DNA of 64,000 bases from Desulfoglaeba alkanexedens ALDC (GTDB lineage: Bacteria > Desulfobacterota > Syntrophobacteria > Syntrophobacterales > DSM-9756): NCBI RefSeq assembly GCF_005377625.1, contig NZ_CP040098.1, forward strand, positions 1,178,001 to 1,242,000. Direction: 5' to 3'. How positions within the stretch are numbered: position 1 is the first letter of the stretch; each line of letters starts with the position of its first letter. A model generated the notes under the pieces. That model had not been told where the DNA came from. It worked only from the letters and a program-made list of their open reading frames with translations, and did not search any database. This document shows, piece after piece, positions 26,084-60,302 of this stretch. A program made the translations under genes and the position numbers.

Positions 26084-26258
26084 CGGATATTTTGTCACAC
26101 CATTTTCAACGGGCGTCCTCCAAAACGTCACCTCCACAGCTTATGAGTTGCCGCAGGCGCCGGACCCCAGCGGCGTCCGATGAACACCTGCGGAAAGGAC
26201 TGAGGACCGGCATGCCAACGGACGTTCGGAACCAAAGCACCCACTGTGGAGGTAAGCC

Positions 26259-32028: not shown

Positions 32029-33084
32029 ATGTTCAAGAAGACGTCTCTGTGGGTTGCTTTGGCACTTGTGTTGGGGTTGTCATTGATGGCTCAGGCTCAA
32101 TCGTCCAGGGATTACATCAGCATCGTGGGGTCGTCCACGGTCTATCCGTTTGCGACCGTTGTCGCTGAGCAGTTCGGAAAGACCACCCCCTTCAAGACCC
32201 CCAAGATCGAATCGACGGGCTCCGGCGGCGGTTTCAAACTCTTCTGCGCGGGTGTCGGGGTGGAACATCCGGACATCACCAACGCCTCCCGCCGGATGAA
32301 GAAGTCGGAATTCGATCAGTGTCAGGCGAACGGCGTAAAGGACATCGTAGAAGTCAAGATCGGCTACGACGGTATCGTGGTGGCCAATTCCAAAAGCGCG
32401 GAACCCTTCAAGTTGACCCGGAAGGATATTTTCCTCGCCTTGGCCAAACAGGTTCCCGATCCGAAGGGATCCAAGACCTTGGTTCCGAATCCTTACAAAA
32501 CGTGGAAAGACGTGAACCCCGCACTGCCGGCCAAGAAGATCGAGGTGCTCGGCCCGCCCCCCACCTCCGGTACTCGGGACGCCTTCTCCGAACTGGTGAT
32601 GGAAGCCGGCGCCAAGTCCTTTGATTGGATCGCTGCCATTAGGAACGAAGACAAGAAGCGGTTCAAGGCGATCGCCCACACCATTCGGGAAGATGGCGCC
32701 TACATCGAAGCCGGGGAGAACGACAACTTGATCGTTCAGAAACTGGTCGCCAACCCGGACGCCCTGGGGATCTTCGGGTTCAGCTTTCTCGACCAGAATA
32801 CCGACAAGATCCAGGGATCCTTCATCGAAGGCGTTCAGCCCACCTTCGAGGCGATCGCCAGCGGTGAGTATCCGGTTTCACGCCCGCTTTTCTTCTACGT
32901 GAAGAAGGCTCATGTTGACACGATTCCCGGGATTCGCGAATATCTCGCCGAATTCACCAGCGATAAGGCGTGGGGCCCCAACGGCTACCTGTCGGAAAAG
33001 GGACTGATCCCCATGCCGGACGATGAACGGGCCAAGTTCGCCGAAACCGCGAAAGAACTGCGTCCGCTGAAATCGATCGACTAA
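32029..33084 (+). CDS. pstS: Phosphate-binding periplasmic protein PstS
   Basis: 351 residues from ATG 32029 with AAGGAGAAG upstream. Sec signal peptide MFKKTSLWVALALVLGLSLM ending AQA near residue 22. PBP-like family motifs: ISIVGSSTVYPFATVVAEQF, ESTGSGGGFKLFCAGVGVEH, ITNASRRMKKSEF, KIGYDGIVVANS, PPTSGTRDAFSELVMEAGAK and FGFSFLDQN. The TGSGGG and SGTRD loops are the phosphate contacts. Unusually placed after pstA rather than leading the operon. Confidence 0.95.
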   Translation: MFKKTSLWVALALVLGLSLMAQAQSSRDYISIVGSSTVYPFATVVAEQFGKTTPFKTPKIESTGSGGGFKLFCAGVGVEHPDITNASRRMKKSEFDQCQANGVKDIVEVKIGYDGIVVANSKSAEPFKLTRKDIFLALAKQVPDPKGSKTLVPNPYKTWKDVNPALPAKKIEVLGPPPTSGTRDAFSELVMEAGAKSFDWIAAIRNEDKKRFKAIAHTIREDGAYIEAGENDNLIVQKLVANPDALGIFGFSFLDQNTDKIQGSFIEGVQPTFEAIASGEYPVSRPLFFYVKKAHVDTIPGIREYLAEFTSDKAWGPNGYLSEKGLIPMPDDERAKFAETAKELRPLKSID

Positions 33085-33224
33085 CGGATTCCGAGGCGGG
33101 AAGCCGGTGGCCGCCGCCGCCGGCTCTCCGCCGGGTTCTGTGATGCAATGTTCGCATGAGGGGCTACAGCTTTTGGAGCCCGTCGTCAGTGTAGATCGGC
33201 GGGATTGGGTCCAGAGAGGGACAA

Positions 33225-33541
33225 GGGTGCAGATCTTTTGCTTCTTGTTCCCAAGCTCCAGCTTGGGAACACATCTGTGCAGAAGCTCCAGCTTCGGTGA
33301 TGCCGTTCCCAAGCCAGAGCTTGGAACGAGGGGAAACATCACTTCGAGATCCTGGCGAGCTCCCTAGAAAGACAGCGCGTTTCAGCTGTAGCAGGAGGGA
33401 AGCTGGAGCTTCCCGGGCAGGGCGTTCCCAAGCTGGAGCTTGGGAACGAGGGGAAACGGAGCTGATGCGCTTGCTGCTTCAAGGCCATCTGGATCTACCT
33501 CAGAGGCTCACCCTGGATGTCGTTCTAAAAGATCCGCACCC
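33225..33541 (+). mobile_element. 317-bp MITE between pstS and pstB, with perfect 9-bp target duplication
   Basis: Terminal inverted repeats GGGTGCAGATCTTTT (33225-33239) and AAAAGATCCGCACCC (33527-33541) differ at one position. The element is bracketed by the exact direct repeat GAGGGACAA at 33216-33224 and 33542-33550. Inside are several TTCCCAAGCT palindromes. No transposase. Relative to the 198-bp copy at 60105-60302 it has an extra ~120-bp internal segment (about 33310-33440). The remainder of the 33085-33639 spacer has no gene. Confidence 0.9.
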
Positions 33542-33639
33542 GAGGGACAACAATTCCATCAGAAAGTACAGAGCCCATGCTCGATGCCTTAAACAAGATG
33601 CCGAAAACGAACCACCACGTCAGGGAAGAGCGGTCGCAA

Positions 33640-34467
33640 ATGGTGGGTACCTCAAGAGCCCTTAGGACGTCCAGGGAGGTTCGAGAAACGGTCGGAGAGC
33701 CGTTTCACGAGGATCCTCGGATGACGTGCCGAAACGTCGACGTGTTCTACGGAGACAAGCAGGCACTCCGAAACATCTCTTTGGACATCGGACGCAACCA
33801 GGTGATCGCGATGATCGGGCCCTCGGGCTGCGGCAAATCGACCTTCCTGCGATGCCTCAATCGCATGAACGACACCATCGAAGGGTGCCGCGTGACAGGC
33901 CGCATCACTCTTGACGGCAAAGATATCTACGACAAGAGCGTGGACGTTGTGTCGCTCCGAGCCCAAGTGGGCATGGTGTTCCAGAAGCCGAACCCGTTTC
34001 CCAAATCCATCTACGAAAACGTGGCCTACGGCCCGAAGATTCACGGCCTGGCGGAAACGCGTCGAGAACTGGACGAGATCGTCGAGACGTCCTTGCGAAA
34101 GGCTGGGCTCTGGGACGAGGTCAAAGACCGGCTCCAAGAACCGGGAACCAGCCTTTCCGGAGGCCAGCAGCAGCGCCTGTGCATCGCGCGCACCATCGCT
34201 GTTAGCCCTGAGGTGATCCTCATGGACGAACCCTGTTCCGCTCTCGATCCCATCGCCACGGCCGTCATCGAAGACCTCATCGACGAACTCAAACAACAGT
34301 ATTCCATCGCCATCGTCACCCATTCCATGCAGCAAGCGTCGAGGGTCTCCCAACGCACCGCGTTTTTTCACTTGGGCGATTTGATCGAAGTCGGACCCAC
34401 CGCTGTGATCTTTACCAATCCCCGCCACGAGCTCACGGAAGATTACATCACCGGCCGTTTCGGCTGA
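33640..34467 (+). CDS. pstB: Phosphate ABC transporter ATP-binding protein PstB
   Basis: 275 residues if started at ATG 33640, which has GGGAAGAG 9 bp upstream; in-frame ATGs at 33577 and 33598 lack ribosome sites and lie next to the MITE. Core motifs: [18 protein letters not shown], Walker [27 protein letters not shown] (PstB-specific), [47 protein letters not shown] and [20 protein letters not shown]. Family-typical C-terminus ending in DYITGRFG. Phosphate uptake ATPase, coupled to phoU 36 bp on. Confidence 0.95.
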
Positions 34468-45814: not shown

Positions 45815-45933
45815 CCGCAGCGTCCTAGGGGGAGAGTGCCGCTCGATTGGAGACCGGCTTCGTTAGAGCTTGTCCAAACCACCATGACCAGGACTTGGTC
45901 ACCCCCACTCATGAAAATCATCCCAGGGTATCG

Positions 45934-46300
45934 AAGCTGGAGCTTCTGCACAGTTGTGTTCCCAAGCTGGAGCTTGGGAACAAGGTGGAAGGCAACCGCG
46001 GTCATGTAGGAGCGGCGCCCTCGCCGCGATGAAATTCACACAGTTTGTAGAATAACGTATTAGGAATCTCAAACACAATGTTGCTCTCTGCAACGCCCGC
46101 GGAGCCTTCTCAGTACAGCTCAATAGAATAAAGTGTTTATTGTAAGATGTTAAAACTCTCTGGAACTTCAACCTTGTTCCCAAACTCCAGCTTGGGAACA
46201 ACGTCAAAAAATCCCCCTCTCCCCTTAATCGCCTCCCACAAGGGGAGGTGGAATAGAATTTCCCGCTCGTTCCCAAGTCAGAGCTTGGGAACCAGCGGGA
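45934..46300. repeat. Cluster of TTCCCAAGCT palindromes and a REP-like unit
   Basis: 45934-45984 is a MITE-core fragment with the AAGCTGGAGCTTCTGCACAG stretch, 46005-46035 is a REP-like unit nearly identical to 11161-11191, and further palindromes lie at about 46173-46200 and 46269-46291. The spacer 45815-46401 has no gene beyond the terminator listed next; short peptides predicted here are repeat artefacts. Confidence 0.75.
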
Positions 46301-60104: not shown

Positions 60105-60302
60105 GGGTGCAGATCTTTTGCTTCTTGTTCCCAAGCTCCAGATTGGGAACACAACTGTGCAGAAGCTCCAGCTTCGGTGAGGCCGTTCCCAAGCCAGCGC
60201 TTCGGAACGAGGGGAAACGGAGCTGATGCGCTTGCTGCTTCAAGGCCATCTGGATCTATCTCAGATGGTCACCCTGGATGTCGTTCTAAAAGATCCGCAC
60301 CC
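60105..60302 (+). mobile_element. 198-bp MITE, second full copy of the GGGTGCAGATCTTTT family
   Basis: Same terminal repeats as the copy at 33225 (GGGTGCAGATCTTTT at 60105-60119, AAAAGATCCGCACCC at 60288-60302) and near-identical flanking interior, lacking the extra internal segment. Flanks ATACCGAAT and ATATCGAAC match at 7 of 9 positions (both differences transitions), consistent with an older 9-bp target duplication. Lies just upstream of the Pho-box array of the ArsC-like gene. Confidence 0.85.

Follow-up and report, generated by a model that had tools for sequence, protein, structure and literature searches.

Between pstS and pstB of Desulfoglaeba alkanexedens ALDC lies a 317-bp sequence with inverted ends, and the locus raises the question of what this sequence is, how it came to stand there and what it might do to the messages of the genes on either side. 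The window (the whole stretch of DNA analysed, 64,000 nucleotides) lies in a contig of 3,365,583 bp. A preliminary description had read positions 33216-33550 as a MITE placed by transposition with its duplication intact, had described terminal repeats of 15 bp that differ at one base, between exact 9-bp flanks, and had suggested a loss of ribosome context for pstB. Repeats and flanks were confirmed to the base by direct reading, the interval comprising the 317-bp element and both target copies. The transposed MITE was upheld; the ribosome-context argument was not, and the composite structure and ISKra4 origin had been missed. The element was read, with high confidence, as a non-autonomous ISKra4-family MITE that encloses an internally deleted RAYT/REP transposon and that would have been moved whole by a trans-acting transposase.

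Outer shell and inner block of the element

The features are collected in Table 1. The reverse complement of the right terminal repeat differs from the left repeat at one base. When the window was scanned for exact 9-bp direct repeats around inverted 15-mers (at most one mismatch), this one place was found, and none of 200 first-order Markov windows of equal length contained such an arrangement. The element is short, carries no transposase gene, and has terminal inverted repeats and a target-site duplication; a parent autonomous element can also be named for it, the ISKra4-type IS of Desulfoferrobacter suflitae. Rfam gave no match up to E 0.1 in 33060-33700.

Table 1. Features of the pst locus and related repeats in the window.
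Feature	Position	Strand	Basis
pstS	32029..33084	+	TIGR02136, 157 bits, under cut-off 206.6
Left copy of 9-bp target duplication GAGGGACAA	33216..33224	+	direct reading
Composite MITE, 317 bp	33225..33541	+	direct reading, family alignment
Left terminal inverted repeat GGGTGCAGATCTTTT, ISKra4 type, 15 bp	33225..33239	+	direct reading
REP-type unit (large palindrome, then small palindrome), equal to left end of decayed RAYT transposon (G000:2328025-2328575)	33244..33296	-	blastn 94% over 53 bp
Extra large palindrome within inner block	33302..33336	+	blastn, family alignment
Short RAYT coding remnant, frame reads HHFEILAS (RAYT remnants: DHFEILA)	33334..33364	+	blastn 91-96% over 23-25 bp
RAYT transposon 3' part and right REP unit (small, then large palindrome, then GAGGGGAA)	33366..33456	+	blastn 83% over 93 columns to L330
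ISKra4 transposase N-terminal coding remnant (ETELMRLLLQGHL)	33452..33491	+	82.5% over 40 bp to D. suflitae IS, itself NF033572 match
Outer end of ISKra4-type IS (transposase C-terminal side)	33499..33541	+	83.7% over 43 bp to D. suflitae IS
Right terminal inverted repeat AAAAGATCCGCACCC, 15 bp	33527..33541	-	direct reading
Right copy of 9-bp target duplication GAGGGACAA	33542..33550	+	direct reading
pstB, start position conserved in relatives	33577..34467	+	NCBIfam model
Solitary REP-type unit without MITE ends	45932..45984	-	window scan
Second family member in window, 198-bp form	60105..60302	+	flanks agree at 7/9 bases

The outer shell was compared with other genomes using the 131-bp core, the form of the family without any palindrome block. 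DNA matches were obtained in 2 of 40 genomes, the own genome and D. suflitae DRH4, where the core aligned to IS ends (83% over 42 bp and 85% over 34 bp) and to IS N-terminal coding sequence (78% over 49 bp). The proteins at these IS ends matched the NCBIfam model NF033572 transpos_ISKra4 with E-values of 2.5e-21 and 1.8e-06; both matches are partial and so stay under the cut-off for the whole protein. Many of the loci located elsewhere with the C-terminal piece carried ISKra4-type elements of ~1.7 kb that had GGGTGC-type ends and exact 9-bp flanks (e.g. L182, L197, L204, L206 and L207). When 55 genomes of the class were searched by pattern, four, the own among them, had the IS-type end. By these alignments, the outer shell is an internally deleted ISKra4-family insertion sequence, and its nearest autonomous relatives were found in D. 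suflitae.

The genome search for an autonomous element that the preliminary description had proposed returned no intact partner: neither the ISKra4 family model nor the 131-bp core revealed an intact ISKra4 transposase with matching ends in the own genome (assembly 96.95% complete). The model detected one transposase there, truncated, in two pieces, under cut-off and of different sequence; this truncated locus (1704407-1705343) was discounted as a partner because its sequence assigns it to a different subfamily. Since no intact enzyme with these ends was found at home, the mobilising transposase was inferred from other species, and a MITE that has lost its partner need not have one in the same genome. 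PMC3942029, in the available portion, describes ISKra4 as a group of Mutator-related transposases, several members of which insert upstream of sigma-A promoters. Promoter-like sites 13-17 bp outside the ends showed no excess among 158 unique flanks; such targeting is not required of all members. Separately, other short elements with the same ISKra4-type end (GGGTGCAGATCTTTTGGAACAA) but different interiors were seen in a genome of the same family (G002, contigs 72, 84, 176 and 248; L147, L151, L154 and L156), and are possibly an independent MITE family.

The inner block holds two inverted REP-type palindromes, an arrangement known from REPINs. Copies of its palindrome GTTCCCAAGCTNNAGCTTGGGAAC number 519 in the own contig (at most one mismatch), and the palindrome is present in 15 of 395 genomes of the phylum, own included; in other genomes it borders a Y1 transposase gene of RAYT type (PF01797). 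Eight near-full-length homologues of the L307 RAYT were considered among the matches listed, the L307 gene itself counted. At up to four mismatches the palindrome was found on both sides of five (L315, L316, L317, L319 and L321) and not near the other three (L318, L328 and L320). In the own genome only fragments of L307-type RAYT were found, one of which (2328108-2328513) lies between palindrome units. In blastn, the 317-bp element aligned colinearly with this genome's decayed RAYT element (G000:2328025-2328575), with element positions 20-72 matching its left end (94%), 110-132 its coding sequence (91%) and 142-232 its right end (83%). Frame 0 of the element reads ETELMRLLLQGHLDL, resembling the ISKra4 N-terminus, and frame 1 contains the RAYT-like peptide. 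The colinear alignment together with the two frames shows one deleted transposon inside another.

Were the element a plain ISKra4-derived MITE, its palindromes would be ordinary internal sequence and no second transposon would be involved. The 131-bp class does resemble a plain MITE, but the interior of the 317-bp form is colinear with a RAYT element that stands by itself at another place in this genome, coding piece included, and the palindromes are commoner in the genome than the MITE ends; a plain MITE was accordingly considered improbable.

Other Y1-type loci of the own genome were inspected. The RAYT gene at 195234-195668 was rejected as mobiliser of the palindrome, as it sits among a different repeat, with one palindrome (at most four mismatches) in the surrounding stretch. 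That region (L295, G000:C1:193500-197500) contains a RAYT-like gene among many copies of TGGTGCGTTGCGCCCGCTGTCGCGGGCTTCACGCACCCTACG, a second REP-type family of the genome. Three IS200-type Y1 transposase matches with identical scores (G000:C1:121348-121707, 3175640-3175999 and 3362532-3362891) apparently represent an intact IS200-like element, and no palindrome was found near the one of the three copies inspected.

Complete and truncated copies in the genome

With at most two mismatches allowed, the terminal repeat was matched 104 + 117 = 221 times in the own genome and the reversed control 3 + 6 = 9 times. Several repeats close to the start of the contig recurred near its end in the same order with small length differences (1673/3340487, 8839/3347665 and 25874/3365342). 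Contig positions 1-26107 and 3338800-3365583 are probably an untrimmed circular overlap of ~26 kb, so that repeat counts for the contig are slightly high. End pairs were counted in ~493 kb of sequence chosen near matches, with ends 100-800 bp apart, which gave 52 pairs. Their flanks agreed at 9/9 bases in 19 pairs, 8/9 in five, 7/9 in three and 6/9 or fewer in 25; agreement at 7/9 or better was thus reached by 27 of 52, against 0.67 expected when partners were shuffled. By crude ORF calling, which misassigned the pstB side and carries little weight, 49 of the 52 pairs lay outside ORFs and an orientation bias was not clear.

Copies formed a length ladder with classes near 131, 140, 198, 317 and 382 bp, plus one copy of 722 bp. 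Exact 9-bp duplications were found in 0/8 copies of 125-135 bp, 2/7 of 136-145 bp, 4/10 of 190-225 bp, 5/12 of 310-330 bp and 7/10 of 345-400 bp, and in 0/1 at 722 bp, where 8/9 bases match. The composite moved as one unit, since these duplications flank the whole. On the simplest reading, the plain core is oldest and the palindrome-carrying classes spread later as whole units. The preliminary description had called the pst insertion recent, which fits a copy that is fairly young for its family: it departs at 5 of 317 bases from the consensus of the 12 copies of its length, among which the range was 4 to 15. A further repeat (TTCTATTTCCCCTCCCCTTGTGGGAGGGG...) was noticed beside a palindrome inside the 351-387 and 722-bp classes (e.g. 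G000:C1:2823987-2824367 and 2733932-2734653), and it occurs three times in the 722-bp copy.

Truncated copies comprised 30 left-only (no right end within 1,300 bp) and 11 right-only cases; given the overlap of the contig ends, the left-only copies at 26105 and 3365567 probably represent a single site. In consensus positions, left-only copies stopped at 229-234 (12 copies), 112-113 (8), 46-49 (8), 72 (1) and 268 (1), so that 28 of 30 end at the right edge of one of three palindromes. Of the 11 right-only copies, four begin where the third palindrome has its left edge (200-201) and the rest at 8, 13, 171, 176, 266 and 277, with one unaligned. By these stop points, the palindromes are the places where left-only copies usually broke or exchanged sequence. 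Reciprocal exchange of a simple kind among REP copies was not adopted as the whole cause, since it does not predict the asymmetry of left-only over right-only copies and since a 22-bp direct repeat lies on the two sides of the left-only site 696303. In a separate observation, a GTAGGAGC-type REP pair to the right of the left-only copy 863465 (L031, G000:C1:861731-864964) has near-exact direct repeats of 26 bp (TCGCGCCGGCGCCATGACGGAACACC) on both sides, which resembles an insertion that made a long duplication.

Copies that end exactly at REP edges, and the REP units that flank RAYT genes in other genomes, could be taken to mean that a RAYT (Y1) system moves the composite from its REP ends and that the outer ISKra4-type ends are passengers. 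This was judged very unlikely, because the 9-bp duplications exactly flank the outer ends and because the fitting RAYT was found in the own genome only as decayed fragments. Transposition by Y1 enzymes of the IS200/IS605 group is not known to duplicate the target, which likewise speaks against it.

The pst site and possible effects on expression

The element separates pstS from pstB, as the preliminary description had stated, and NCBIfam models support the flanking genes and the operon order pstC-pstA-pstS-pstB-phoU. The description had also named the finding in relatives that would make the repeat ancestral, and the corresponding comparison was made. Among 15 genomes searched with PstS, ten besides the own had a close PstS (66-75% identity) and an adjacent PstB, and the other four had none or a weak match. 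The insert was absent from all ten, and the best match to the terminal repeat in their spacers had 4 to 7 mismatches. Between the pstS stop and a conserved PstB motif lie 660 bp here, or 334 bp without the element (660 - 326); in the ten relatives this stretch measures 126-331 bp. As none of the ten relatives with the same neighbourhood carries it, the element was inserted at the pst site.

That the repeat is instead ancestral to the spacer and was lost by the relatives, whose spacers are too diverged to show an unoccupied 9-mer or to judge loss base by base, is the least probable explanation of all, given ten empty relatives of ten, a stop-to-motif distance near theirs without the element, and the exact target duplication that marks an insertion.

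The pstB start codon (ATG) at 33577 lies behind 26 native bases that follow the right duplication, and 37 codons separate it from the TVG motif, against 40-41 in the three relatives counted. The Shine-Dalgarno match upstream of pstB is weak here and stronger in some relatives, and is native sequence in both, so its weakness is not caused by the element. The loss that the preliminary description had suggested is, for these reasons, not supported.

An effect through the message itself is plausible. Folded as RNA, the element gave -164.7 kcal/mol (z -8.2 against 100 shuffles), and the transcript between pstS and pstB probably includes it as a strong hairpin. No sigma-70-like promoter or terminator was found in 33060-33760, so that a regulatory signal is not evident there. 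REP hairpins between genes can protect upstream message. MITE hairpins can stabilise or destabilise mRNA, according to the accessible text of PMC3733652. Given the strong fold and these known effects, it is a reasonable guess that the element may protect the message upstream of it and so change how much pstS mRNA there is relative to pstB mRNA. The site offers a natural insertion between the two genes, whose effect on phosphate-uptake mRNA is measurable.

Proposed history and comparison with known systems

For the nested MITE, the following order of events is proposed. An ISKra4-type IS lost most of its transposase gene, leaving the ~131-bp core with both ends that the alignments reveal. A REP-bounded decayed RAYT element, evident in the present structure, would then have come inside the core by a presumed entry that replaced ~26 bp. 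An ISKra4 transposase acting in trans would have taken the outer 15-bp ends as its substrate and transposed the composite as a whole, with 9-bp duplications; the pst copy, whose insertion is documented by the empty neighbours and the duplication, landed 26 bp upstream of the pstB start. REP palindromes, acting as putative break or exchange points, would finally have truncated many copies, in line with the breakpoint pattern.

The hybrid spread in this genome although matching transposase genes were not found intact there. The younger, larger MITE classes enclose another transposon's palindromes and may thus provide a route by which REPs multiply without a transposase of their own, and the differing fractions of intact duplications make the order of events readable from one genome. 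We tentatively entertain, as a possibility rather than an expectation, a two-layer parasite in which an ISKra4-derived MITE carries a non-autonomous RAYT/REP element whose palindromes make the carrier copies preferred sites of truncation and exchange. If this were true, one element type would spread the recombination sites of another; if it were general, nested MITEs would explain high REP copy number without active RAYT.

Among the matches listed in a literature search, in which subscription journals were sparsely covered and ISfinder lay outside the scope, none described a RAYT element lodged within an ISKra4 MITE. The element resembles ISKra4 insertion sequences (p-MULT 4 group) in its GGGTGC-type terminal repeats, 9-bp duplications and transposase N-terminal coding remnants, but it is 317 bp long, has no transposase gene and carries a second transposon derivative. 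Bacterial MITEs, which include RUP, NEMIS and Nezha (PMC3733652, in the portion available), are likewise short, non-coding and present in many copies, with terminal inverted repeats, a target duplication and a strong hairpin if transcribed; the present interior differs in being, by its alignments, a deleted element of the unrelated Y1 transposition system, and the family differs in its ladder of sizes (131-722 bp), to which REP blocks and another repeat contribute the steps. With REPINs, BIMEs and RAYT elements, as far as the accessible sections of PMC3116915 and PMC3733652 describe them, the inner block shares the inverted REP-type palindrome pair and the same layout beside RAYT genes. It differs from them in having no intact cognate RAYT found in its own genome, in showing no GTAG tag at the GTTCCCAAGCTNNAGCTTGGGAAC-type palindrome (compare the tagged REPs in the consulted part of PMC3733652), and in being enclosed by ISKra4 ends and duplicated with them. 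MITEs and REP/RAYT elements are each of a known kind, and the composite is a variant of these kinds.
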